Assembly: GCA_903878115.1 (NCBI GenBank)
Contig: CAIRGO010000290.1
Location: 1 to 33,792, forward strand
DNA from: Akkermansiaceae bacterium
GTDB taxonomy: Bacteria; Verrucomicrobiota; Verrucomicrobiia; Verrucomicrobiales; Akkermansiaceae
Direction of reading: 5' to 3'
Length of the DNA: 33,792 bases
The position numbers were made by a program, and so were the translations under genes. Every line of letters begins with the position of its first letter. Position 1 is the stretch's first letter. Under the pieces are notes generated by a model, which was not told where the DNA came from, made no database searches, and saw only the letters and a program-made list of their open reading frames with translations. Shown here in pieces: positions 1,136 through 30,439 of the stretch.

Positions 1136-4100
1136 TCAGCTTTTGGTGACAAATTCATCCATGTTCATCAAGGCGCGAGCCACGGCGGTCCAGGCTGCGC
1201 GTGGGAGGATGGTTTCGGCAGGTCCGTTTCCGGCGAGGGCCTTGGCCGACTCGGGAGCAGCGGTGAAGCGTTGTTGCTGCTTGTGATAGAAATCGATGAC
1301 CGCAACGAGTTCCTCTGGCGAAGGAGGTCGCGAGAAGCAGCGCACGAAGGCCTCGGACGCCAGTTGCTCGGGAGTGCCCGGGGTTTCCACCAGGTGTTTG
1401 CCGAGAGCCTGGGAGGCCTCGATGATCGTGACATCGTTGAGCAACGACAGGGCTTGGAGCGGCGTGTTCGACTTGTCCCGATTGACAATGCAGGCCTCGC
1501 CGGTGGGTGCATCGAAGGTGTTAGCAAAGGCAAATGGAGCGGTGCGCTTGGCGAAGGTGTAAAGGCTCCGGCGATATCGGTCCTCGCCGTTGCTAGTGTT
1601 CCAGGAGAGGGCTCCAAACGTCCCCTCGGTGGTGACGCTGGCGGGCTGTGGCGGAAAGACACTGGGGCCCATCATTTTGTTGGAAAGGAGGCCAGCCGAA
1701 CGCAGCGCCGAATCGCGCACCTCCTCGGCGTCGAGTCGCAAGCGCGGTCCTCGCCAAAGCAGGACGTTTTCCGGATCCTTTTCCTCACCAGCAGCGGTGG
1801 AGGAGCTCGATTGCCTGTAGGTCTGGCTGGTGACGATCAGGCGGTGGAGTTTCTTGAACGACCAGCCTTCATCCATGAAGCGGATCGCCAACCAGTCGAG
1901 CAACTGCGGATGGGAAGGCGGGCTGCTTTGAAATCCGAAGTCCTCCTGGGTCTTGACGATGCCGCGACCGAAGAAGGTCGCCCAGGCGCGATTGACGACC
2001 ACGCGGGCAGTGAGCGGGTTGTCGCGACTGACCAGCCAGCGGGCAAAGCCGAGGCGGTTCTTCGGAGCTCCGGCAGGTAGGGGATTGAGAATCGATAAAA
2101 CTGCGGGTTCCACAGCATCGGTGGGTTGCGTCCATTCACCGCGATTGTGAATGAAGGTGCGGCGTGGGTTTTCGGCGGGGCGTTCCTGAAGCACCAGCGA
2201 GGTTAGGAACGATTGCGGGCGCCGCAGTTCGTCGATCTCCTTGCGTGAGGCGACAAGCTCGGGGGCATTGAGAAGGAATTCGTTTCTCAGTACCTGGGTC
2301 TCCGCCTCGGTCCGATCCGGCTTGTGGATCAAGGGCTGCACATCGGAGGAAACCTGGCTGGCTACCACCTCGCCCGACTGGGTGGTGAGGGAGATCCGGA
2401 ATTTTCCCAATGAACAGGCATAGTGCCGTCCGAACATCATCGTGAGATTGAGGCTGGAGGCGGTGAGAGGTTTCTCCAATTGGAAGATGGCCTCGTGGGC
2501 GCGGCCTTGGCCTTCCGCGCAGCTCCATCCTGTCTCCGGATTTCCATCGATCGCGAAACTGGCCTCGGCCTGCGAGCCGAAATTGTTCTTCGCATAACTC
2601 TGACTGGCTTTGGCGATCTTGACCGGCTGGCCGTCGGCAGTGAGTTGGAACTCGCCTAACAGGAAATCGCCCTTGGGTCCTTCGTAGTAGGCCATGCCGG
2701 GGCCACGGGCAGGCAATCTCGGATCTGGCAGGGCTTCCAATCGGATGGCGGTGACGGCTTCGGGTGGCTTGCCGAGATCGACCTGATAGGTGTCCGCCTT
2801 GGTGATGTCGCCGGAGACGAAGACAGTGGAATCCGCTTGGATTGTTAGAAGAGGAAGATTCGAGGTGGCTTTGACCGGAGTGACGACCTGCCAACTCGCA
2901 GTATGGGACTTCTGTTGGTCGAGCCACATGGAGAATGCCTTCGCCAACGATTCCTTGCGGAGTGATTCCGGGTCACCGGTGGAAAGTGCCGCAGCACCGA
3001 AGCTGACCTTCATCCGTCCGATGGTGTGCAAGGAGCCGTGCTGCTGTTTGACGACGACTGTCGTGTCGCCAGTCGCGTCGACGGGAGTTTCAAACGTGAA
3101 AGTCGCGGATTTGTTTCCATGGATGTCCTGATCCGGAGCTTGCACAGCCCAACCCGTGTCGTTCCTGCCGTCGATGGCGGCCGTGATGGGGTAGTCGGGT
3201 TGTTCGACGTTGGCGGTCGGCTGCGTGAGCTTCACAATCTGTCCCCCTACGCGGACTTCCAGCTCACTGAGGACAAAGTTGCCGTGTGGTGTTCTTCCGG
3301 GTCCTTTTCCAGGAAGCGAGTCATCTGTTAGAGCCTCGATGCGGAGGCGGGAGAACTTTCCCTTGAGCCCGGCAAACTGCAGGATCGCAGTGCTTGTGGG
3401 CGGTCCAGGTGCGGTGAAGAGAACCGAGCTGTCGTCGAGGGTTCGAGTGGCTTCGGCGGGTTCCGTGGTCATTGTAGGCGTAGGAGTGGTCCAGACCATC
3501 GATGGATCGTTAACCGGCCACTTGAGCGGCAGAGCGGCAACCAGCTCGTCTGCCTTGGCGATCCGTGCTGCTGCCCCTCGCTCCTGATCCGGACTGGGCA
3601 GCTCTAGGGTCGGCTCGTCCGCATTGTCGAGGAACGCCATCATCGAATAATACTCACGATGCGGGATCGGATCGTATTTGTGGGTGTGGCACTGGCAGCA
3701 CTGAAGTGTTAGTCCCAGCCAGGTGGCACCGGTGGTGGCCACTCGATCCACCATGGCCTTGAAGCGGTATTCCAAGGGGTCAATGCCGCCTTCCTCGTTG
3801 AGCATGGTGTTGCGATGAAACCCGGTGGCGATTCGTTGATCTGCGGTGGCGCCAGGGAGCAGGTCGCCGGCGATCTGTTCGATGGTGAATTGATCGAAGG
3901 GCATGTCATCATTGAGTGCCTTGATTACCCAATCGCGATAGGGCCAGATCGTGCGTCCACGGTCCTTCTCGTAGCCGTTGGTGTCGGCATAGCGGGCGAG
4001 ATCGAGCCATTTGCGGGCCCAGCGCTCGCCATATTGTGGAGAGGCGAGCAAGCGATCCACGGCCTTTTCATAGGCATCCGGTGTGCTATCGGCCAGATAC

Positions 4101-4669
4101 GCGGCTAGGTCTTCAGGTGTCGGGGGCAGGCCAATCAGATCGAAACTGACACGTCGGTAAAGAGCCGCCTTATCGGCTTCCGGGGAGGGCTTCAGTCCGC
4201 TCTGCTCGAGGGTCGAGCGCACGAAGGCATCGATCGGATGGGACGCTTCAGACTTGGGAATAGCAGGTGTGACGGGAGCTTGAAACGCCCAGTGCTTTTC
4301 GTATTTCGCCCCGGACGCGATCCACTTTTCCAAGACAACGATTTGCTCCGGGGTGAGTGCCTTCTTCGTGGAGGGTGGTGGCATTTGCTCATCTGGATCA
4401 TTGGAGTGCAGGCGTTTGATCATTTCACTCGAGGAAGGCTTGCCTGAAACGATCGCAGCCTCGCCGGATTTTCCGCCTTTCAGAGCTCCACTTAACTCGC
4501 TGAGCAGGAGTTCACCTTTGCGCTCCTTGTCATCTGGTCCGTGGCACTTGAAGCACGCGTCAGATAGGATCGGGCGCACATCGCGACTGAACGATGGCTC
4601 CTCCGCCCGGATGGTGAGCGCCATGCAGAAAAGGACTGTCAAGATGCGATGGATGTCGGGTGCTGGCAT
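1136..4669 (-). CDS. PSD1 / DUF1549-DUF1553 cytochrome c-like secreted protein
   Basis: This 1177-aa protein begins with a signal peptide (residues 1-22). Next comes a Planctomycete-type cytochrome c domain with the haem-binding motif C39-F-K-C42-H43. DUF1549 follows (about 145-350, ending in CQCHTHKYDPIPHREYY). The middle section has two similar beta-rich modules: one around GKGPGRTPHGNFVLSE, the other around RGPGMAYYEGPKGDFLLGE, each followed by a segment with AIDG and TGW. They look like an internal duplication of a discoidin-like fold. DUF1553 (NRLGFARWLVSRDNPLTARV onward) closes the protein. The ATG at 4669 is preceded by an A/C-rich leader with no Shine-Dalgarno site. It heads an operon with DUF1501. 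The family is thought to be periplasmic or outer-surface and redox-linked; the substrate is unknown. The gene is visibly more GC-rich than most of the rest of the window. Confidence 0.93.
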   Translation of the reverse strand: MPAPDIHRILTVLFCMALTIRAEEPSFSRDVRPILSDACFKCHGPDDKERKGELLLSELSGALKGGKSGEAAIVSGKPSSSEMIKRLHSNDPDEQMPPPSTKKALTPEQIVVLEKWIASGAKYEKHWAFQAPVTPAIPKSEASHPIDAFVRSTLEQSGLKPSPEADKAALYRRVSFDLIGLPPTPEDLAAYLADSTPDAYEKAVDRLLASPQYGERWARKWLDLARYADTNGYEKDRGRTIWPYRDWVIKALNDDMPFDQFTIEQIAGDLLPGATADQRIATGFHRNTMLNEEGGIDPLEYRFKAMVDRVATTGATWLGLTLQCCQCHTHKYDPIPHREYYSMMAFLDNADEPTLELPSPDQERGAAARIAKADELVAALPLKWPVNDPSMVWTTPTPTMTTEPAEATRTLDDSSVLFTAPGPPTSTAILQFAGLKGKFSRLRIEALTDDSLPGKGPGRTPHGNFVLSELEVRVGGQIVKLTQPTANVEQPDYPITAAIDGRNDTGWAVQAPDQDIHGNKSATFTFETPVDATGDTTVVVKQQHGSLHTIGRMKVSFGAAALSTGDPESLRKESLAKAFSMWLDQQKSHTASWQVVTPVKATSNLPLLTIQADSTVFVSGDITKADTYQVDLGKPPEAVTAIRLEALPDPRLPARGPGMAYYEGPKGDFLLGEFQLTADGQPVKIAKASQSYAKNNFGSQAEASFAIDGNPETGWSCAEGQGRAHEAIFQLEKPLTASSLNLTMMFGRHYACSLGKFRISLTTQSGEVVASQVSSDVQPLIHKPDRTEAETQVLRNEFLLNAPELVASRKEIDELRRPQSFLTSLVLQERPAENPRRTFIHNRGEWTQPTDAVEPAVLSILNPLPAGAPKNRLGFARWLVSRDNPLTARVVVNRAWATFFGRGIVKTQEDFGFQSSPPSHPQLLDWLAIRFMDEGWSFKKLHRLIVTSQTYRQSSSSTAAGEEKDPENVLLWRGPRLRLDAEEVRDSALRSAGLLSNKMMGPSVFPPQPASVTTEGTFGALSWNTSNGEDRYRRSLYTFAKRTAPFAFANTFDAPTGEACIVNRDKSNTPLQALSLLNDVTIIEASQALGKHLVETPGTPEQLASEAFVRCFSRPPSPEELVAVIDFYHKQQQRFTAAPESAKALAGNGPAETILPRAAWTAVARALMNMDEFVTKS

Positions 4670-5911: not shown

Positions 5912-8338
5912 TTACTTGAGTTTGATCAGCACGGGTGTTTCTGTTGATGCCTCGATCGCGGCAATGGTTTCTTTTACGCATTTGGCTTTCATGGCCATGA
6001 GTTGAGGCGGAAAGTCTTTCTCGTCTTTTTCAAAATAGTTGCCGATTTTTTTCAACTCAGGAATGACTGCTTTCGCATGGGTGCCATAGCTGAGCAGAAT
6101 TTTCATCAATTCAGGTGTCCGCTCTTGGCTGTCCCATGGATTCTGGTCACGGGTGTATTTGACACAAGCGGCGATTCCTTCCTCGACATGATTTTTTGCT
6201 AAGATGCGTAGCCCCTCTACACGAATCTGGTCAGCAAACATCTCGCCGCTGGGCGAACCGACGACGACTGCCTGAAGGATGGCGGGCAGTAGTGGTTTGA
6301 TTTCTTCTGCAGAGAGATTTTTGTAAACCGAGCAAATGGCACCGCGGGCGCGACCATCTTGGTTGGCAAGACCGATGCGCACGGCATCATAGAGAGCGGT
6401 GCGATCTACCCCTTCTAGCGAGTGGCTAAGCAAGCCGGGACTATGTTCGCCGCCTGCATCGAATAGGGCAAAAGTAATGTAGCGTTGCAGCATCGCGCGT
6501 GGATCATTTTTCGGATCGAATTGACCCAATAAGGCGAGGATTTTTGGCACTGATTTCATAGCGGGTTTACCGATACTTGCCAATGCTTCTGCTGCTTTGA
6601 CTTTCAGCCAGAAGTCATTTTCTGTTAACAATTTTTCTAACGCATCGACCGCAGGTTCACTGCGACCACCAATGGCGATCAGTGCTTGGCAGGCGCCGTA
6701 ACGAGCTTCGATCGTCGGAGATTGGAGCAATTTGATCAACGCGGGAATAGGCACATCTTTGCGACGGGCTAGGGAATTCGCGGCGCGTTCGCGGATGATC
6801 GGCGACCAACTGCTGAGGCATTCGAAGATTTCTTCGCTGTTTAATTTGTCATAGGCAGCATCGCGATCTTTGTTGTTCCAGCCGCGACCATCGTTGACGA
6901 GTGATTGTGCAGCCGTAGCATCGAGTTGCGGGATGATGGAGGGGCGTTTTCCTGTTAGATAAATTTTCTTCAGCGGCATCGCATAGGCGAGTAGATATGC
7001 CCCGCTGGCATCCCAGCCCTGATAGCTGTCATTGTCTTTCTCTGGTGGCCCTTGATGGGCGAATGATCCATCCCAACGACGCGCTAAATCAAAGTACCAT
7101 GTGCCATACTCTTTCATCCATGCTCCCGTTGCTTGAGGACCGGACTGGGCGACGGCTGGCATGGCCCATAAGATATTGAAAAAATTTCCCGTATGCCCGG
7201 TATCGCGCTCAGGTCCGTGACTAGCGCAACCCATGCGCGAGAAAAACTCTGCGCCTTTTGCATCACCGAGTAAGTTGAAAAGGACCGCTGCCATGCCGCA
7301 CTTGCCGTTGTCGTCGTGGTTCTGAATCCAGGGATGATGATCGCCATAGGGAACGGCTCCTTTGCCAATGTAAAAGCGCAGCAGGCGCGCGCTTAGTTCG
7401 ATCGCGGTGTCCACATGCGGATCATTCACGCCAGCGGTGCGTGCCAATACCAAAGAAATTGTCAGCGTAATTCCAGGAGAGTTCATCATCCCGTAGCCGC
7501 CCAGTCGACCATCTGGCAACGCGAAACCATGACCCCACGATCCTACCGCGCTTTGGCTTTTTGCCGCTTCGAGCGCGAGACGTTTCAGCCCGGGCATCAC
7601 TGATTTATCATTCGTGGCCATCACATATTCCGAGAGCAAAATGATGCAGTAGCCATAATGCCACGTCTGAAAACTATCAGCTTCATAATCTGCGGCCCAT
7701 TGCGCTTCTTTTTTCACCAACGACAGGTAGGACTTATCGCCACTGGCTAGCAGGGCGAGTGCATTCAGCGAGCGGATGATCGGGTCCTCATTATCGGTCG
7801 AATCTTTCATTCTTTTCGCCAGTGCTTTGCAGCCTTGTTCCAAAATCAGCGTAGATTTTTTGCAATCATACGGCGCGGTGGCACTGTAGTTACCTAGCAC
7901 TGGCAGTTCGATGCTTACCTCCTCGGTTTTGCCCGCCCGCCAACGGGTTAGGCTCAGTTTGCCCTGAGCGGCATCCGATTCGGCGACGGTTAGCGCCCTG
8001 CCCATTTCCGTGCGCGGGTCGTAGGAAAATGGCTTGCCACCAACGCCGAGAATCACGTCGCCCACTTCAAAAACTTTACCCGCAGGGGATTTTTTGTCCA
8101 CCTGGGTAATTGCGATTTGGCGGGTATCTGAGGTGACCATTTGATCGCAATAAATCCACCCACGCAGCCCCGTAGCCCCGAGGTTCCAGTCGTGAGCGGC
8201 ATCAGCGGGAATTGTCCCGCCATTGGTGAAATCTGGCATGATAAGTTCGCCACTCTTCGCTGCGATTGCAGAATGAATGAGAGAACTGGCAATGGCTAAC
8301 GAGAAAAGTGCCGTGAAGAGAGAATTTTTGGTGGTCAT
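5912..8338 (-). CDS. DUF6288-type secreted protein with PDZ-like domain and HEAT repeats
   Basis: This 808-aa protein has a signal peptide ending near residue 26 (IHSAIAA). A PDZ-like segment follows (about 80-150: SPAGKVFEVGDVILGVGGKPF). The central part (about 170-450) is helical with repeated Trp/Tyr/Gly-rich turns such as GSWGHGFALPDGRLGGYGMMNSPG, suggesting an alpha/alpha toroid. The C-terminal third has HEAT-like repeats (about 510-800: IIRERAANSLARR, VKAAEALASIGKPA). I recognise the N-terminal block as DUF6288, found mainly in Planctomycetota and Verrucomicrobiota; no activity is established. It is the first gene of a leftward pair with the SGNH hydrolase. ATG 8338 follows the signal-peptide frame and has no Shine-Dalgarno sequence. 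The combination suggests a periplasmic scaffold or processing factor, but this cannot be shown here. Confidence 0.8.
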   Translation of the reverse strand: MTTKNSLFTALFSLAIASSLIHSAIAAKSGELIMPDFTNGGTIPADAAHDWNLGATGLRGWIYCDQMVTSDTRQIAITQVDKKSPAGKVFEVGDVILGVGGKPFSYDPRTEMGRALTVAESDAAQGKLSLTRWRAGKTEEVSIELPVLGNYSATAPYDCKKSTLILEQGCKALAKRMKDSTDNEDPIIRSLNALALLASGDKSYLSLVKKEAQWAADYEADSFQTWHYGYCIILLSEYVMATNDKSVMPGLKRLALEAAKSQSAVGSWGHGFALPDGRLGGYGMMNSPGITLTISLVLARTAGVNDPHVDTAIELSARLLRFYIGKGAVPYGDHHPWIQNHDDNGKCGMAAVLFNLLGDAKGAEFFSRMGCASHGPERDTGHTGNFFNILWAMPAVAQSGPQATGAWMKEYGTWYFDLARRWDGSFAHQGPPEKDNDSYQGWDASGAYLLAYAMPLKKIYLTGKRPSIIPQLDATAAQSLVNDGRGWNNKDRDAAYDKLNSEEIFECLSSWSPIIRERAANSLARRKDVPIPALIKLLQSPTIEARYGACQALIAIGGRSEPAVDALEKLLTENDFWLKVKAAEALASIGKPAMKSVPKILALLGQFDPKNDPRAMLQRYITFALFDAGGEHSPGLLSHSLEGVDRTALYDAVRIGLANQDGRARGAICSVYKNLSAEEIKPLLPAILQAVVVGSPSGEMFADQIRVEGLRILAKNHVEEGIAACVKYTRDQNPWDSQERTPELMKILLSYGTHAKAVIPELKKIGNYFEKDEKDFPPQLMAMKAKCVKETIAAIEASTETPVLIKLK

Positions 8339-12556: not shown

Positions 12557-13840
12557 TTAGCGATCATCCTGTGACTCATGCTTGCCACCCTCAGGGCCCA
12601 CGGCTTTATACACGGGATCTAGTCGGTGCGTGGCATCAGTAAACAAATGGCGCACTTGATTGGTGCTGGGCGTGTTAGGCGGAGCTTTGGGCAGTGTCAA
12701 TTTTTGCGCTTTCATAACTAGCAGTGTTTCATCGGTAAAAGCCGACATCAGCGCCACGAGATCATTTTCCTGTTGTTCACTGAGCCCTAAATTGCCCGCA
12801 TCTTTGTGGTTCACGGTGGCGGGATAATCGGTAGTTCCCCAGCGATCTGGTTGCAGATCACGGCGGTTATAAAATTCGATGACTTCACGCAGCGTGGCGA
12901 GCGAGCCATTATGCATATACGGCGCGGTAAGTTCGATATTTCGCAACGAAGGAGCGCGGAATAGTCCCACCTCTTCTTTTCTGCCAGTGATGCCGCCAAG
13001 ACCAAGATCGGCCTTGCCACGACTGGGCACCCCGAGGTTGTCGTAGCCGAAGTCGCTCAACAGCGGGTGAGGCCACGCATCGCTCTCTAACAAATGGCAT
13101 TGCGCACATTTTCCCGCATGCTGAAATACCTCAAGGCCGCGTTTTTCGGCGGCGTTCAGCGCGGCATCGTCACCATCCAAGTAGCGATCGATGCGCGCGG
13201 AAAATGGGCGGAAAAGTGGTTCTTTCAAAAATTCTGCCAATGCCCGAAACGCATAATGATTCACCTGTGCATCATCGGCCCACGCCGCCGCGCCTAACCA
13301 TTGCTGAAATTCCTTGGCGTAAGCGGCATGTCGCAGGCGTTTCGCTAACTCGGCCGCATTTGGCAAATTCATTTCATTGCTGCTAAAAAATGGCGAGTGC
13401 ACTTGTTGAAATATATCGTTCGCCCTGCCGTCATAAAACAATCCGCCTTCGGGAATAAATACTTCTGCCCCCTGCTCGTCGATTTTTTCGTCGCGCATCA
13501 ATGACGGAATCAGTGCGGCATACATAAGCGAAGGGGCATTGCGTGCGCCCTCTTTCCCAGCAACCGCGCCTAACGAAACGGCTCGCGGATCAGCAAAGGC
13601 ATGCTGCGCATCATGGCACGATTGACAACTTTGGCCGATGGGTTGTGAAAGGCTGCGATCCTCAAAAATACGCCGACCAAGCGCAGCAGCACCCTGCATA
13701 CTGCGCGATTCTGCGGACATCACCTCGGCATACCCAAGCAGGGGAGCGCGCGCGATTGGTTTTTCCTCAGCGGCCAGACACGCCACGCCATGGATCACGA
13801 CGAACGCGAGTAGGCAGCGAGAATGATGCAGAGAAGGCAC
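12557..13840 (-). CDS. Di-haem cytochrome c peroxidase / MauG family protein
   Basis: This periplasmic enzyme family reduces hydrogen peroxide with electrons from small cytochromes, or oxidises other substrates in MauG-like members. Two c-type haem motifs are visible: Cys72-x-x-Cys75-His76 (CQSCHDAQHAFADPR) and Cys245-x-x-Cys248-His249 (CAQCHLLESDAWPH). Family landmarks include FYDGRAND, and FRAPSLRNIELTAPYMHNGSLATLREVIEFYN near the C-terminus. The frame is open up to 13987, but I prefer the GTG at 13840. It gives a clean signal peptide (SRCLLAFVVIHGVACLA then AEEKP), whereas the upstream extension overlaps the divergent rlmB start region. The resulting 427 aa fits the family. Whether it is a true peroxidase cannot be told from sequence alone. 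Confidence 0.9.
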   Translation of the reverse strand: MPSLHHSRCLLAFVVIHGVACLAAEEKPIARAPLLGYAEVMSAESRSMQGAAALGRRIFEDRSLSQPIGQSCQSCHDAQHAFADPRAVSLGAVAGKEGARNAPSLMYAALIPSLMRDEKIDEQGAEVFIPEGGLFYDGRANDIFQQVHSPFFSSNEMNLPNAAELAKRLRHAAYAKEFQQWLGAAAWADDAQVNHYAFRALAEFLKEPLFRPFSARIDRYLDGDDAALNAAEKRGLEVFQHAGKCAQCHLLESDAWPHPLLSDFGYDNLGVPSRGKADLGLGGITGRKEEVGLFRAPSLRNIELTAPYMHNGSLATLREVIEFYNRRDLQPDRWGTTDYPATVNHKDAGNLGLSEQQENDLVALMSAFTDETLLVMKAQKLTLPKAPPNTPSTNQVRHLFTDATHRLDPVYKAVGPEGGKHESQDDR

Positions 13841-13892
13841 CAGTGCAGCGTAACGAGTCAGCGAATAAATGGCAAGTCTATCGCTCCCATGG

Positions 13893-13921
13893 TTGCATAG
13901 TTGGCAAAAGTTATCTACACT
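13893..13921 (+). promoter_or_regulatory. Candidate promoter of the rlmB-phosphoesterase unit
   Basis: TTGCAT (13893-13898) and TACACT (13916-13921) are separated by 17 nt. The predicted start of transcription near 13928 coincides with an in-frame GTG, again suggesting a leaderless message. An alternative TTG start at 13901 would lie inside this promoter and is therefore less likely. Confidence 0.5.
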
Positions 13922-13927
13922 TTCGGC

Positions 13928-14524
13928 GTGAAGAATTTCCGGAAAAATCCAAGAGATCGTGATGATACAGCTCGTGAGAACCGCCATGTGCGGAATGTTG
14001 CCCCAGAAGCGGAGGCGATCCCTGCGCGCAATGAAGATGATGTTTGGGATTTATTAACCGCAGCAAAAAATCCGTTAGTGCTGATTCTTGATTGCATTCA
14101 AGACGTGCACAACCTCGGAGCGATCCTGCGCACTGCCGATGGCGCGGGCGTGACGGCAGTCGTTGCGCCTAAGGATAAAGCGGCATCGATCACTGAAACG
14201 GTGCGTCGCGTATCGACCGGTGCTGCTGATTGGGTGCCCTTTTTCCAAGTCACGAACTTGGCGCGGTTCATGGAAAAACTTAAAGAAGTCGGCGTGTGGA
14301 TCGTCGGCACATCGGATAAGTGCGACAAGACAATTTACCAAATGGATCTCAAGGGACCCATCGCCCTAGTCATGGGAGCTGAAGGAAAAGGCATGCGTCG
14401 TTTGACCGAAGAAAATTGCGATTTTCTGTGCAAATTGCCCATGGCGGGAAAAGTCGAGTGCCTGAATGTTTCTGTGGCCACTGGCATTTGCCTCTATGAA
14501 ACAGTGCGACAACGCAAGATGTGA
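13928..14524 (+). CDS. rlmB: TrmH/SpoU-family rRNA 2'-O-methyltransferase (RlmB-like, short N-terminus)
   Basis: SPOUT-class enzymes of this group transfer methyl from SAM to a ribose 2'-OH; RlmB acts on G2251 of 23S rRNA. The three SpoU motifs are intact: HNLGAILRTADGAG, IALVMGAEGKGMRRLTEENCD, and LPMAGKVECLNVSVATGICLYE. The stretch VTNLARFMEKLKEVGVWIVGTSDKCDKTIYQ follows E. coli RlmB closely. The protein is 198 aa from GTG 13928 (207 aa from TTG 13901), shorter than the 243-aa E. coli enzyme, and most of the N-terminal substrate-binding domain is missing. Target specificity is therefore uncertain; a tRNA or another rRNA site is possible. Its TGA overlaps the ATG of the phosphoesterase (TGATG), which implies translational coupling. 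Confidence 0.85.
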   Translation: MKNFRKNPRDRDDTARENRHVRNVAPEAEAIPARNEDDVWDLLTAAKNPLVLILDCIQDVHNLGAILRTADGAGVTAVVAPKDKAASITETVRRVSTGAADWVPFFQVTNLARFMEKLKEVGVWIVGTSDKCDKTIYQMDLKGPIALVMGAEGKGMRRLTEENCDFLCKLPMAGKVECLNVSVATGICLYETVRQRKM

Positions 14525-15321
14525 TGAAGCAACCTGTGCTCATACTTTCTGATCTGCATCTAGGTCATAGCGCGTCTGTGATCGATGATATCACCGCTCT
14601 TGAACCCTTAATCGCAGGTGCAGGCACGCTGATCATCAATGGCGATACTTGGCAGGAGTTAGCCAACGATTTTCGTGTCGTAGGAAAAAAATTGTTAGAT
14701 GATTTGCATACTATGTGCTCAGCGCGAGGGATCGATCTGGTATTGATCCAAGGAAACCACGATCCCGAGACTGGTCAAGTTGGTTACATGCCACTAGCTG
14801 GTGGTAAGATCATTCTGACCCACGGAGATTGCGTATTTCCGGAAGGCGCGCCATGGAGCCGCATGGTCTCAAAGCGCAAAAATGAATTGCGACAGATTTT
14901 TCTTACTACAAACATAGTAACAATCGAAGATCGTATCGCACTTGCGAAAAAAGTAGCGCAGCTATTGATCCCGCCGACGTATCCGAAGAGTCGCAATCGT
15001 TTGCTGCGAATCTGGGATGCTGTCACGCCGCCAAGTCGTGCGCTGCGGATGATCATTTCTTGGCTTTGCATGGTCAGTGAAACCAGAAAATTTCGCAACA
15101 GATTTTTTCCCCAGTGTGAGATTCTTGTCTGCGGGCATTTTCATCGCGCAGGGATCTGGGATGAAAAAAATCTTTTAGTTATCAACACCGGTTCATTCAT
15201 GCCGCCGGGCGGAGCCTATTGGTGCGAGTGGAATGAGGGATTATTCACCGTGGGAATGGTCAAAAAATCCGAATCTGCATTTGCACGCGGAGAAATCCTT
15301 GGAGTGTGGAAAATTCCCTAA
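14524..15321 (+). CDS. Calcineurin-like metallophosphoesterase (UDP-2,3-diacylglucosamine hydrolase-like)
   Basis: This 265-aa protein carries the two-metal phosphoesterase motifs in order: Asp10-x-His12 (SDLHLGH), Gly-Asp41 (INGDTW), Asn78-His79 (QGNHD), HGD (ILTHGDCVFP) and GHFH (CGHFHRAG). The layout resembles LpxH-type enzymes, which release lipid X from UDP-2,3-diacylglucosamine in lipid A synthesis, but the middle insertion (about 105-180) is longer and basic/aromatic. I would not assign lpxH without a search. ATG 14524 shares its A with the upstream TGA; a GTG at 14521 is a less likely start. The first hairpin of the RNA-like array begins 11 bp after its stop and may end this transcript. 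Confidence 0.8.
   Translation: MKQPVLILSDLHLGHSASVIDDITALEPLIAGAGTLIINGDTWQELANDFRVVGKKLLDDLHTMCSARGIDLVLIQGNHDPETGQVGYMPLAGGKIILTHGDCVFPEGAPWSRMVSKRKNELRQIFLTTNIVTIEDRIALAKKVAQLLIPPTYPKSRNRLLRIWDAVTPPSRALRMIISWLCMVSETRKFRNRFFPQCEILVCGHFHRAGIWDEKNLLVINTGSFMPPGGAYWCEWNEGLFTVGMVKKSESAFARGEILGVWKIP
14904..14919. repeat. Dyad TACTAY-N4-RTAGTA inside the phosphoesterase gene
   Basis: TACTACAAACATAGTA here is the exact reverse complement of the dyad at 4939-4954, and the identity extends one more base to 17 nt. It is within codons for LTTNIVT. A role at an intragenic position is uncertain. Confidence 0.5.
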
Positions 15322-15331
15322 CAAAAAAAGT

Positions 15332-15454
15332 GGGTGGCGAATCCTCTGGTACTCAACCGATTCGCCACCCCTTTAGCGTTACTGTCGGAAAACCCATAAC
15401 CAACAGCAACAATCAAAGTTAAGCGAAAAGCGTGCCAACATTTTTCGCTTTTTT
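15332..15454 (+). ncRNA. Tandem structured RNA-like unit 1
   Basis: Hairpin 1 is a perfect 12-bp stem (15332-15343 with 15359-15370) with a 15-nt loop containing GGT/ACC that can pair internally. Hairpin 2 presents the box loop AAAACCCATAA between GG (15387-15388) and CC (15400-15401), extended by GTTACTGT/ACAGCAAC with two A-C mismatches. Hairpin 3 is a perfect 9-bp stem AAGCGAAAA / TTTTCGCTT (15421-15429 with 15442-15450), with GCGTGCCAA in its loop and a T-run after it, as in an intrinsic terminator. No ORF runs through the unit. The strand is assigned from the terminator. Confidence 0.55.
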
Positions 15455-15500
15455 GATTATGAAAATTTTTCTTGTTAGATCGAAATTTGAAAAGTTATTG

Positions 15501-15737
15501 CCCACAGATTTAAAGGATTTTCACAGATAAGAGATTGACGATTTCATCTGATTTTAGCGTGGAAATTTTGTCAAATTTTGCCCTTAATTCTCAACAATCT
15601 CGTTTTTCATCTTTCCTTTATCCTTGGTAAAAAATCAAATCTTAGCTATCTTCGTGTCTTTGCTAGCTTTGCGGTTAATCTAACTGCATTTTTTCTTTGA
15701 AGAAATGATCTCGCGCAGAGACGCAGAGAAGAGGAGA
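15501..15737. repeat. Cluster of three dispersed-repeat-like stretches
   Basis: Three stretches have the look of short intergenic repeats I recall from many unrelated bacterial genomes: CCCACAGATT...TCACAGATAA (15501-15530), TTCGTGTCTTTGCTAGC followed by TTTGCGGTTAATC (about 15650-15680), and TCTCGCGCAGAGACGCAGAG (about 15709-15728). Each is degenerate. Only one copy of each occurs in this window, so the call rests on resemblance and not on repetition seen here. Confidence 0.35.
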
Positions 15738-15839
15738 AATTGACGATTTATGATTTTTAACTGTTGATTTTTGATTTGTGAAAATACATTGCGTTAAAAC
15801 TTACTAATTGTTTTCTAGCTCCATAAAAAACAAAAAAGT

Positions 15840-15960
15840 GGGCGGTGAATCCTATGGTTCATGACCGATTCACCGCCCCTTTGTGTCGCCCAAGGAAACC
15901 CAAAACCAATAAGCGACAAAAATAAATAAGCGATAGCCGTGCCAAGTTTTTGATTTTTTG
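15840..15960 (+). ncRNA. Tandem structured RNA-like unit 2
   Basis: Hairpin 1 is a perfect 12-bp stem (15840-15851 with 15867-15878) whose 15-nt loop again contains GGT/ACC. Compared with unit 1, two base pairs have changed on both sides (T-A to C-G and C-G to T-A), so pairing is kept. The box GGAAACCCAAAACC (15894-15907) is enclosed by TGTCGC / GCGACA (15884-15889 with 15913-15918). The CGTGCCAAG element and T-rich tail follow; the terminal stem is weak here (CAAAAA/TTTTTG). The downstream flank also matches that of unit 1 (ATGAAAATTTT, then GTTAGAT), so the copies arose by duplication of about 150 bp. Confidence 0.55.
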
Positions 15961-16004
15961 ATTGTATGAAAATTTTGCATCATTCGGTTAGATGACCGTA
16001 CAAA

Positions 16005-16134
16005 TGTAACGGGTTGATATCCCCCGACATCAACCCGTTACAAATATATGATGAAATACAAACTTTGGAAAACCCAAGAACCAATAGTCTGCTAAATGAA
16101 TAAAGCGAGATGCGTGCCAAGTATCTCATTTTTG
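16005..16134 (+). ncRNA. Tandem structured RNA-like unit 3
   Basis: Hairpin 1 is a perfect 14-bp stem (16005-16018 with 16029-16042) with a C-rich 10-nt loop. Hairpin 2 pairs ACT-TTGG (16062-16068) with CCAA-T-AGT (16081-16088) around the loop AAAACCCAAGAA. Hairpin 3 is GAGAT / ATCTC (16107-16111 with 16123-16127) around GCGTGCCAAGT, followed by ATTTTTG. Hairpin 1 has a different sequence from units 1 and 2 but keeps the same position relative to the box. Confidence 0.55.
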
Positions 16135-16199
16135 TTACAAATGAAACCTTTTCATGGCTCTGCACGCTCCTCATCGGTAGAAATCACTAGAAAAAGCAA

Positions 16200-16315
16200 C
16201 GGGCTGACTCCCATAGGAGTCAACCCGCAACCATATGAATAGTAACCCATGGAAAACCCAAAAACCAAAAGGAAACTATGCTAATACAACGTTGCCATTT
16301 TGGATTTCTTTCTAA
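16200..16315 (+). ncRNA. Tandem structured RNA-like unit 4 (degenerate 3' part)
   Basis: Hairpin 1 pairs CGGGCTGACTCC (16200-16211) with 16216-16227 around CATA, with one C-A mismatch; it resembles hairpin 1 of unit 3 (CGGGYTGA / TCAACCCG). The box GGAAAACCCAAAAACC is at 16251-16266. The third element is changed to GTTGCCA and no convincing terminator follows, although CCAAAA (16265-16270) can pair with TTTTGG (16298-16303). This copy is probably decaying or processed differently. Confidence 0.4.
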
Positions 16316-16362: not shown

Positions 16363-17361
16363 TTACGAGCCCCAGGAAAACCGCTCGGGGATCCATGTGT
16401 AAGTATCTTTTTTGACTTCCGCGAGGTGCCCCAGCGCTGGCCATGGCAGGTGGAACCCATACAATCGCGTTTTTTCGACGTTTGCTTGGGCATAGACCTT
16501 TTTCCGCGTGATCACCGCCAACTCAGGGTCGTGATCGAAGGCAATCGTCCAGCCGACATTTTCAAACATCAGCAAATGATGATGCGCCAGATCCATGATG
16601 TGCAGCAGTGACTGTCCCGCCGAGCTGATGCGAAAAATCGCATGACCCGCCGTATGACCAGGGGCTAACTCCAGCTTGATATCGCCATTCCAGACGGATG
16701 AACCATCTTTGAGGATATTTGTCACTGGCTTGAGAATTTCAAAGCGATTTCGGTTATCTTTGGTCAGGCCGGGCAGTTCTTTTTTGTCGCGTTTGGATTT
16801 GGAAAAATCTGGCTCTTTGGAAAACCAGAAATCAAGCTCTTCCTGTGTCACGTAGAATGCAGCATTAGGGAAGGTAATGGCATTATCGATGGTGAAGCCG
16901 CCGATGTGATCCACGTGGGCATGGCTCAAAAACGCGGCGGTGACGTCGGTTTTCTTGATGCCGATCGATTCGAGCGCGGCGAAGAACCAGCCGAAATTAT
17001 TATTTTTCACTTTGCCGAAGCCAGAATCGAAAATGGCCACTTCTTTGCCTTTGCGCAGGACTAGAATATTGACGTAAAGCGGAATGCCATCATTGCGTTC
17101 ATAATGTTTTTCTAACGACTCTGCCATCTGTGGTCGATCAGCTTCAGGATACATCATGCCAATCGCCGGACGAATCAGCGAATGACCATCACTGATGGAA
17201 AACGCCTCGATTTCACCAATCTGAAAGCGATAGATGTTAGGGTTGCGAAATGGCAACGGTTCAGACGCCGTTTTTTCCTCTGCAGATGCAGGCAAAAGTT
17301 GAGAGAATAATGCAGCGGAACTACCAAGGAACGTGCGGCGCGACCAAGAATCGGTTGACAT
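16363..17361 (-). CDS. MBL-fold metallo-hydrolase with Tat signal
   Basis: Metallo-beta-lactamase-fold hydrolases use one or two zinc ions; activities range from lactonase to phosphodiesterase. The zinc motif His147-x-His149-x-Asp151-His152 ([10 protein letters not shown]) is present, followed by [17 protein letters not shown] and a C-terminal [10 protein letters not shown]. This order and the wording ISDGH, YVNILVL and IFDSGFG are typical of the quorum-lactonase-like/YtnP-type subgroup of exported hydrolases, though the substrate cannot be read from sequence. The N-terminus [20 protein letters not shown] is a twin-arginine signal, so I start at ATG 17361 (332 aa). The longer frame to 17418 would bury that signal. 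The gene diverges from the TM2 gene and ends next to RNA-like unit 4. Confidence 0.87.
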
Positions 17362-17462
17362 GTTTTCAGTATGGAAAAATCCCACCAAAGAACAAGCGGC
17401 GATTCCAAAATGACACAAATATTTTCATGGCGAATCATGCGATGGGTTATATCATACATCCC

Positions 17463-25474: not shown

Positions 25475-25652
25475 AATATTCCGAGTGAATCTATTTCTTT
25501 TTGGCAAGAAAATTCGGTGCTGATTGGCAAAGAAAAAAAAACATGCTTCTCGCCAGTTGACATTTGCTGCACTTCTGAACAAAGTCGTTTCCGCAATCTT
25601 GGAGAAACTGTTTTTCCAAAACTTACAGATCATCAAAAAACTACTAAATCTC

Positions 25653-27305
25653 GTGTTTTCCAACGAAGACTACATTCTGCAATTACTGACCGAAGCTGGC
25701 CTGGTCAGCGATCATGTGATCGACTCTGTTCGCCAATCTGGCGGCAATCAATCAGTGATCGATAAGCTCATCCGCGATGGTCACATCGATCAGGTCGAGA
25801 TCGCCAAGGTGCTTGCATCTAGCAATGCTCTGGAGTTTTTTGATCTAGCAAATACTTCTGTCGCACCAGAGGTGGCCAATAGTATTACCGATGAAGTAGC
25901 GCGTCGCTATAAGGTGATACCTGTTTTTGATGATGGCTCCACGTTGACGCTTGCCATCGCTGATCCGTTTGATTTTGAAACGCTGGATGCATTGCCTCAT
26001 GTGCTTACCCGTGAGATCAATTTTGTGGTTTCTACGCCCGATTCCATCAATTCGATGCTGAAAAATTTCTACGGTGCGCAAGACCAAGGTGCGGCTGGTG
26101 CTGTGGATGAATCGATCGATGTCGAAGGCACTGATGCCCCCATCATCAAACTCGTTCTTGGCATGTTGGTGGATGCGTTTAACAACAGAGCATCTGACAT
26201 TCACATCGAGCCGTTAGAGACCTCGGTGCGTATCCGCTACCGGGTAGATGGTAAGCTGATCGAAGTGGCCAATCATCCGAAAAAATTGCTGCCATCCATC
26301 ATCGCTCGTCTTAAGGTTATGAGCACCAGCATGAGCATTGCGGAAAAACGCATGCCTCAAGACGGACGAATTCAGGTTAAGATCGCTGGAAAAGATGTGG
26401 ACCTGCGTGTTTCCTCGGTGCCGTCGAATCATGGTGAATCGATCGTCATGCGGATTTTGGATAAATCGGGTCTGGTGCTTGGTTTGCCAGAGCTTGGGTT
26501 TTTCTCAGATGACCAAGCTACCTTTGAACGCTTGCTTGGTTTGCCCGATGGCATCATCCTCGTCACAGGTCCTACTGGTTCTGGTAAGACTACTACACTT
26601 TACGGTTGCTTAAATGCGATCAATAAACCGGATAAAAAAATCATTACCGTGGAAGACCCCGTCGAGTATGAAATGGCCGGCATCAATCAGGTGATGGTCA
26701 GAACCGAGATTGGGATGACCTTTTCCAATGCTCTGCGTGCCATGCTTCGCCAAGCTCCTAACATCATCATGATCGGAGAGATTCGTGATGCGGAAACCGC
26801 AAACATTGCCATCAACGCCTCGCTCACGGGTCACCTTGTGTTCTCCACGCTGCACACCAACGATGCTCCTTCTGCGGTTGCGCGTTTGGCAGATATTGGC
26901 GTCAAACGTTTCCTTATCGCCTCGGCAGTGCGTGCGGTGCTGGCACAACGCTTGGTGCGTAAACTTTGCCCTGCATGCAAAACTCCGATAGAACTTTCCG
27001 ATAAAGAATTGCGCGCGCTTCGTCTCGATGCTTCACGTATGGTTGACGCCACCATCCAAGGGCCTGTTGGTTGCGAAAAATGCCGCAAAAAAGGCTTCCG
27101 CGGACGTATGGGAATTTTCGAGATTTTTGAAATCGATGACGAAGTCCGCCACTTGATTAACTCCGAGTTATCATCGTCTCATCTGCGCAAACGTGCTCGC
27201 GAAATGGGCATGCGCTCGATGCGCGAAGATGGCATTCGCAAGGTCCTCGCTGGTCTCACATCTGCTCAAGAAGTCATCCATGTCACCATGGCTGATGCCG
27301 ATTAA
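25653..27305 (+). CDS. pilB: GspE/PilB-type secretion or pilus-assembly ATPase (copy 1)
   Basis: This hexameric ATPase powers pseudopilus or pilus assembly at the inner membrane. An N-terminal MshEN/GspE-N domain (about 1-140) is followed by an ATPase core with Walker A GPTGSGKTT (residues 306-314), VEDPVEYEMAGINQV, Walker B IIMIGEIRDAET and [15 protein letters not shown] zinc-type CPAC...CEKC module lies near the C-terminus. I prefer GTG 25653, which gives MFSNEDYILQLLTEAGLVSD, a typical N-terminus, and follows the same ATCTC as the other two cluster genes. The frame extends to a TTG at 25524, which would add a 43-residue basic/hydrophobic segment. It heads the cluster that continues with ATPase 2, PilC and GspG. 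Confidence 0.93.
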   Translation: MFSNEDYILQLLTEAGLVSDHVIDSVRQSGGNQSVIDKLIRDGHIDQVEIAKVLASSNALEFFDLANTSVAPEVANSITDEVARRYKVIPVFDDGSTLTLAIADPFDFETLDALPHVLTREINFVVSTPDSINSMLKNFYGAQDQGAAGAVDESIDVEGTDAPIIKLVLGMLVDAFNNRASDIHIEPLETSVRIRYRVDGKLIEVANHPKKLLPSIIARLKVMSTSMSIAEKRMPQDGRIQVKIAGKDVDLRVSSVPSNHGESIVMRILDKSGLVLGLPELGFFSDDQATFERLLGLPDGIILVTGPTGSGKTTTLYGCLNAINKPDKKIITVEDPVEYEMAGINQVMVRTEIGMTFSNALRAMLRQAPNIIMIGEIRDAETANIAINASLTGHLVFSTLHTNDAPSAVARLADIGVKRFLIASAVRAVLAQRLVRKLCPACKTPIELSDKELRALRLDASRMVDATIQGPVGCEKCRKKGFRGRMGIFEIFEIDDEVRHLINSELSSSHLRKRAREMGMRSMREDGIRKVLAGLTSAQEVIHVTMADAD

Positions 27306-29167: not shown

Positions 29168-30439
29168 ATGCCAAATTTCCAATACCTTGCAATGGATGCC
29201 AAAGGAGAGCAAACCTCCGGAACAATTGAAGCATCTAACGAAACCGATGCGTTAGCAAAACTCCGTGCAGGTGGACTGTATCCGACACAAATTGCTGAAG
29301 CTGGTAAAAACGCCAAAAAAGGTGCTGCGAAAAAAAGCGGTGTCAAAGGTGCTCCTAAAAGCAAAACTGGTGGCCGCATCAAGCCGAAAGTGCTGATGAT
29401 TTTCACGCGTCAGTTGGCAACACTGATCGACTCTGGTTTGCCATTGCTTCGTGGTCTGACAGTTCTTGGCAAGCAAGAGCCAAATCCAGTTCTGCGCGGC
29501 ACTCTCTCCGCTCTATCGGATTCGGTGCAAGGTGGTTCTACGTTCTCCGAATCTCTCGCACAGCACCCACGTATTTTTAATAAACTCTACGTCAACATGG
29601 TCAAAGCTGGTGAGCTAGGTGGTGTGTTGGAAGTCGTTCTTCGTCGTCTAGCAGAATACCAAGAAAAAGCGCACAAGTTGAAAAACAAAATTGTGTCCGC
29701 CATGGTCTATCCAGTGATCGTGATGTTCATCGCGGTTTCGATTCTGTTGTTCCTAATGATTTTCATCGTGCCGAAATTCAAAGACATGTTCTCGGAAATG
29801 GGCGATGCAGAATTGCCATTGATTTCTCAAGTTGTCTTCGGCTTCTCCGATTTCCTCATTAAGCCGACGATTTGGATCATTCCTAACATTGTCTGGATTC
29901 TTCTATTCTTCTTCGGCGTCTACATGGGATTTGCCGCTTGGGGTCGCACGCCAAAAGGGAGAACCTTTATTGATAATCTGAAATTGCGTTTGCCAATTTT
30001 TGGCGATATCCAACGAAAGAGTGCTGTTTCCCGTTTCTCGCGAACTCTCGGCACTCTGGTCACTTCGGGTGTGCCCATTTTGCAAGCTCTTAACATCACC
30101 AAAGAAACCGCAGGAAACGTGGTGATCTCCAAAGCCATCGGCCAAGTGCACGAGGCCGTGAAAGAAGGTGAGTCGATTGTCACCCCACTGCAAGCTTCTG
30201 GTGTGTTCCCGAACATGGTGATTTCCATGGTCGACGTGGGTGAGGAAACAGGACAATTGCCAGAAATGTTATTGAAAGTTGCTGATGTTTACGATGACGA
30301 GGTTGACAATGCAGTAACCGCGCTTACTTCTATTCTTGAACCGGTGATGATTGTTTTCCTAGCTCTTGTTGTCGGCTCGGTTGTATTTGCTCTCTTCCTA
30401 CCACTGATCAAGATCATCAATACCATGGGTGCGCAGTAA
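29168..30439 (+). CDS. pilC: GspF/PilC inner-membrane platform protein
   Basis: This 423-aa polytopic protein anchors type II secretion or type IV pilus machinery in the inner membrane and couples the ATPase to pilin polymerisation. After a short N-terminal domain (MPNFQYLAMDAKGEQTSGTIEA), a Lys/Gly/Ala-rich linker (about 47-73) leads into the first GspF domain (FTRQLATLIDSGLPLLRGLTVL). The membrane segments around 175-200 and 220-260 follow. The second GspF domain (FSRTLGTLVTSGVPILQALNI, then MVDVGEETGQLPEMLLKVADVYDDEVD) and a final helix close the protein. All parts are intact. The pseudopilin gene starts 37 bp after its stop. ATG 29168 is chosen by the family N-terminus. Confidence 0.95.
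   Translation: MPNFQYLAMDAKGEQTSGTIEASNETDALAKLRAGGLYPTQIAEAGKNAKKGAAKKSGVKGAPKSKTGGRIKPKVLMIFTRQLATLIDSGLPLLRGLTVLGKQEPNPVLRGTLSALSDSVQGGSTFSESLAQHPRIFNKLYVNMVKAGELGGVLEVVLRRLAEYQEKAHKLKNKIVSAMVYPVIVMFIAVSILLFLMIFIVPKFKDMFSEMGDAELPLISQVVFGFSDFLIKPTIWIIPNIVWILLFFFGVYMGFAAWGRTPKGRTFIDNLKLRLPIFGDIQRKSAVSRFSRTLGTLVTSGVPILQALNITKETAGNVVISKAIGQVHEAVKEGESIVTPLQASGVFPNMVISMVDVGEETGQLPEMLLKVADVYDDEVDNAVTALTSILEPVMIVFLALVVGSVVFALFLPLIKIINTMGAQ

Follow-up and report, generated by a model that had tools for sequence, protein, structure and literature searches.

A candidate family of tandem sibling small RNAs, mostly with sigma-54 promoters, in a Verrucomicrobiota family

Genes and repeat units at the locus

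The window analysed here, the whole stretch of 33,792 nucleotides from an Akkermansiaceae bacterium, holds four tandem repeat units in an interval between positions 15321 and 16300 that contains no open reading frame of at least 80 amino acids. On its left lies a metallophosphoesterase gene (14521–15321, plus strand), a conserved neighbour in several genomes of genus g1 that we treat as context only, while on its right a gene for an MBL-fold protein of the AidB/YtnP-like lactonase family (16363–17418, minus strand), likewise conserved next to the array in genus g1, is located upstream of the units. Elsewhere the window encodes a large PSCyt1/PSCyt2/PSD1 protein with an F5/8 type C domain (1136–4669, minus strand), a DUF6288 protein with HEAT and PDZ domains (5912–8338, minus strand) and a di-haem cytochrome c peroxidase or MauG-like protein (CCP_MauG; 12557–13987, minus strand), as well as a type II/IV secretion ATPase (MshEN and T2SSE; 25524–27305, plus strand) and an inner-membrane T2SSF gene (29168–30439, plus strand), both belonging to a pilus or secretion locus.

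A search of the entire window for the box pattern AAACCCAN{1,2}AACCAA returned four matches, all within 15390–16268, where none was expected from 100 shuffles, and on the plus strand a strong hairpin precedes each of the four boxes (fold z-scores −3.2 to −7.1). The initial annotation had described four units of hairpin, box and a GTGCCAA-type element; box and hairpin are indeed present in all of them, but the third element occurs in units 1–3 only, at a constant box-to-GTGCC spacing of 28–29 nt. Units 1 and 2 are separated by an A/T-rich spacer of 340 bases (15460–15800) without open reading frame, in which degenerate repeats AGATAAGAGATTGACGATTT were noted at 15525 and 15730.

Minus-strand promoters and predicted transcripts

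Comparison with relatives from the same genus revealed that CGTGCCAA always lies 28–30 nt after the box, with a GC shortly before it, and that both elements, read on the other strand, form TTGGCACG-N6-GC, a sigma-54 promoter of the −24/−12 type. The consensus for such promoters is YTGGCACG-N4-TTGC with GG-N10-GC spacing. Units 1–3 each carry an exact −24/−12 match with this spacing on the minus strand, namely TTGGCACGCTTTTCGC (15423–15438), TTGGCACGGCTATCGC (15930–15945) and TTGGCACGCATCTCGC (16105–16120), placed 35–37 nt from the box; TTGGCACG and the GC are invariant in 10/10 aligned genus copies (alignment A2), and the element recurs in other genera. Only three exact TTGGCACG-N6-GC sites were found, and the GTTGCCA of unit 4, previously counted as the same element, is not among them; orthologues of unit 4 lack it as well. 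From the sequence, we consider it probable that these promoters drive minus-strand genes for small RNAs. Not all copies are under sigma-54, as some relatives appear to have a sigma-70-type promoter or none. RpoN is encoded in the host genome (G000:C318, E = 1.2e-50) and in 182 of 195 family genomes, and because it is nearly universal in the family, its co-occurrence with the units is uninformative. A search for upstream 7-mers shared within the genus, as a candidate activator site, gave only weak A/T words such as TTTTCAT.

Counting 12 nt from the promoter GC placed the predicted +1 at the first base of the box hairpin, or within one or two bases of it. On the minus strand, the order in units 1–3 is promoter, small hairpin with a conserved G/U-rich loop GGUUNUUGGGUUUUCC, and a strong 3' hairpin; a T-run follows this last hairpin in units 1 and 2, and also in unit 4. 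For unit 1, the predicted sRNA (15325–15411, minus strand) starts at 15411 and comprises a hairpin (15410–15378) with the loop box at 15403–15387, followed by a terminator hairpin (15370–15332) and T-run. The predicted sRNA of unit 2 (15833–15918, minus strand) has its loop box at 15909–15894 and a terminator hairpin at 15878–15840, again with a T-run, and this terminator is about 82% identical to that of unit 1 over 51 nt; the predicted transcripts of these two units measure 86–87 nt. Unit 3 (16000–16093, minus strand; +1 at 16093, loop box 16084–16067, 3' hairpin 16042–16005) ends in a weak T-run, which leaves its 3' end uncertain. The features by which trans-acting sRNAs are recognised, i.e. 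an own promoter, an intrinsic terminator, conserved structure and no open reading frame, are all found here, the terminator of unit 3 being weak.

Unit 4 (16190–16283, minus strand; loop box 16268–16251, terminator 16228–16199) is a sibling without a sigma-54 promoter that adjoins the downstream end of the MBL-fold gene. Its orthologues in four other genomes lie 35–50 nt after the same gene and also lack a sigma-54 promoter, so unit 4 probably derives from a 3'UTR or is read from a different promoter.

These findings place the units on the strand opposite to the one originally proposed. The earlier version envisaged sRNAs or attenuators on the plus strand, in which GTGCCAA occupied the loop of a hairpin followed by a T-run, and the plus strand of unit 3 does contain a terminator-like site whose loop holds GTGCCAA, while unit 1 folds similarly. 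Among 51 related copies, however, this loop placement recurs in only two and a terminator downstream of GTGCCAA in three, which makes the layout coincidental, whereas a terminator on the sRNA strand is present in 42 (9.75 on average in shuffles, at most 17). As relatives do not keep the key hairpin, we rejected both the plus-strand sRNA and the attenuator as candidates. GTGCCAA, with its fixed spacing to the GC, is the sigma-54 −24 element read in reverse complement and as such falls outside the RNA; the long stem-loop taken for a 5' element corresponds to the terminator hairpin that closes the minus-strand RNA at its 3' end, and the exposed box, described as C-rich, is rich in G and U in the predicted transcript. 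Since all conserved features are explained by the minus strand, we regard the plus-strand reading as very improbable. Leader or attenuator modules are likewise unsupported, because the units follow rather than precede the same-strand gene upstream and face a convergent gene downstream.

Conservation, distribution and sub-classes

A covariance-model search, which had been suggested as the check, recovered structurally conserved homologues in related genomes, and the idea of small RNAs that form a family of tandem siblings and share a conserved exposed loop is upheld. Genus assignments of the loci follow the labels of the sequence collection. Model R1 found 19 strong copies, often in tandem, in 9 of 10 genus genomes. 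In the genus alignment of the hairpin (A6), 86% of cells were paired compared to 72% after shuffling, with a covariation score of 0.486 versus 0.228 and 35 versus 13 two-sided cells, although both R1 and A6 were fitted to the same structure that they test. Covariation was stronger in the ungapped, MAFFT-aligned cross-genus alignment of the box hairpin (A5), in which 90% of cells were paired, two-sided changes affected six of seven pairs and the score reached 0.648 versus 0.269, with slid versions of the structure nowhere near. The loop UU(N)NUGGGUUUU, of 11–13 nt and closed by G-C pairs, is nearly invariant, while the stem sequence varies freely.

With model R2, the box hairpin was detected in 60 of 195 family genomes and in 8 of 16 genera (E ≤ 0.001). 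Among 388 genomes of the phylum, those outside the family gave only marginal matches (E ~1e-3 per genome), which were treated as chance. A scan of named genomes for the promoter-plus-box pattern yielded 38 stretches, 36 of them genuine and all of these from Verrucomicrobiota; besides freshwater MAGs, 'Prosthecobacter' MAGs and entries titled Akkermansiaceae or Verrucomicrobiaceae, they include one isolate, Luteolibacter pohnpeiensis KCTC 22041, which carries two copies (L150:1791–1898 and 2151–2262) with predicted starts at L150:1818 and 2178. The other two, from Bacteroidales (L170) and Sphingorhabdus (L181), lacked a box hairpin despite matching the pattern and were set aside as chance. The genes next to the copies differ between genera, and genomic context accordingly gives no function; that copies adjoin unrelated genes argues for independent genes.

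The copies fall into three sub-classes. In class I, found in the host genus, the box hairpin is followed by a separate terminator, and in most copies the predicted +1 coincides with the first base of P1 or the base before it. Class II, the Luteolibacter type, uses the same promoter with UGUCGCGACA at the predicted +1, and the terminator hairpin itself carries the box as its apical loop; this loop, GGUUAAUGGGUUUUC, is invariant in 17 aligned copies, and tandem arrays reach 3–4 copies. Class III, mainly from genus g7, shares the class II layout with the loop GGUUUUUGGGUUUUUCC and, as judged by eye, a sigma-70-like TTGAC upstream. Two loop positions vary by sub-class, being either AA or UU. The host genome also contains one class II-like copy (L118) and one copy located in a terminator loop (contig C183).

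Several further occurrences were recorded. Five more box hairpins with a loop like GTTAATGGGTTTTC are present in the host genome (L114–L117 and L119, on contigs C211, C162, C17, C67 and C231), most of which have CCGG-type stems, and they are followed by a terminator-like hairpin of the GGGTCGCYGG..CCGGCGGCCCC type; promoters were not identified for them. At five loci of genus g7 (L067, L068, L070, L071 and L072), the box hairpin sits within a REP-like repeat (TTCTGCAGAACRAGYCGTCCACC ... GGGTGGGCGG), has neither promoter nor T-run, and may represent a mobile copy of the module. A palindrome, TGTCGCGACA, is found exactly at the predicted class II (sigma-54) start, for example at L150, L159, L163 and L168, and at the matching place upstream of class III hairpins, which could make it an operator or the 5' end of the RNA.

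Possible mode of action and relation to known systems

The sequence is best read as a family of trans-acting sibling sRNAs that appears to be undescribed and would depend mostly on sigma-54, with the exposed loop as the proposed recognition element. The promoter match, fixed spacing, start position, hairpins, terminators, covariation and family distribution are features of the DNA itself, and it is from these that we infer transcription, a regulatory role and pairing as the mode of action. In such a scheme, sigma-54 RNA polymerase, opened by an enhancer-binding protein, would start at the foot of the small hairpin, 12 nt past the promoter GC, and produce an RNA of about 70–92 nt that ends at the intrinsic terminator. 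The variable stem would display the near-invariant G/U-rich loop, whose likeliest use may be pairing with several mRNAs at A/C-rich sites, and a sigma-54 signal could in this way adjust translation or stability of the targets without Hfq. A higher dosage, and room for paralogues to diverge, would come with the tandem arrangement. Pairing with mRNA as the mode of action itself we rate at roughly even chances. The 10-nt loop complement GGAAAACCCA occurs at seven sites of the host genome outside the sRNAs, which is near chance, and none of these lies clearly at a translation start.

The lack of a conserved mRNA complement at gene starts would suit the main rival reading, in which the loop is a binding site for an RNA-binding protein; the sRNAs would then sequester or deliver the protein in a manner similar to CsrB/RsmZ, and copies at mRNA 3' ends would offer it additional sites. 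A loop kept nearly invariant on stems of any sequence is what a protein site would predict, the loop also appears beside terminators after genes, as in unit 4, and in other contexts, and no match to Hfq (PF17209) was found in the host genome (95.3% complete), yet two RRM proteins are encoded there, either of which might be the partner. Each RNA, however, offers one site only, whereas sponges of the CsrB type have many, and the AA/UU difference between sub-class loops would also be explained by base-pairing to different targets; we consider a protein site possible but less likely than pairing. More tentative still is a wider reading, in which one Verrucomicrobiota family possesses an Hfq-independent regulatory RNA system whose loop UUNNUGGGUUUU docks a dedicated RNA-binding protein, perhaps of the RRM type, and sigma-54 tandem sRNAs, sigma-70 sRNAs and mRNA 3' ends share this loop module. 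That the units lack a regulatory RNA function, being mere terminators or a mobile repeat of the REP type whose hairpin loop is conserved, would agree with unit 4 and its orthologues directly following a gene and with the g7 loop lying inside a repeat-like element with shared flanks. A terminator would need no promoter, however, and here one is found at fixed distance with the +1 at the hairpin foot; moreover, the stem covaries while the loop is invariant, and copies with their own promoters adjoin diverse genes, all of which renders this explanation improbable.

The trans-acting sibling sRNAs favoured here match no Rfam family tested, and the initial annotation had likewise proposed a candidate new family: at the curated gathering score, Rfam 15 gave no match in the window and a single tRNA in 16 related loci, low-threshold matches in the array region remained far below that score, and the Qrr model was absent from the cmscan matches at gathering or at E ≤ 5. 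No description of this RNA family was found in the papers searched for sRNAs of Verrucomicrobiota or Luteolibacter, and a 2022 survey listed only eight distinct Rfam sRNAs for the PVC group as a whole (PMC9029176). In this family the promoter can be recognised and the start site predicted, and a covarying stem bears an invariant loop, so that sigma-54-dependent sRNA regulation in bacteria without Hfq becomes directly testable, including in L. pohnpeiensis KCTC 22041.

The Qrr sRNAs are under sigma-54/LuxO control. Vibrio carries four to five of these siblings (PMC4211561), and they resemble the present family in their shared exposed pairing region, intrinsic terminator and sigma-54 control, but Qrr genes are dispersed and their RNAs use Hfq, while the array described here is tandem, has another loop sequence and comes from a genome in which Hfq was not found. 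Sigma-54-dependent sRNAs also include NrsZ and GlnZ, the latter derived from a 3'UTR (PMC9731577). Together with GlmY/GlmZ these represent an sRNA output of the sigma-54 regulon, and unit 4 may be 3'UTR-derived like GlnZ, although sequence, structure and phylum are different. OmrA/OmrB, PrrF1/PrrF2 and AbcR1/AbcR2 are proteobacterial and are not known to be sigma-54-driven. As tandem sibling sRNAs (PMC4211561), they compare with the present units in their paralogous arrangement, similar length and mixture of conserved and divergent segments, but up to 3–4 copies and a single invariant loop are found here. CsrB/RsmZ likewise show a conserved motif in hairpin loops, but there the CsrA motif ANGGA occurs at many sites per RNA, and here one UGGGUUUU loop is present in each.
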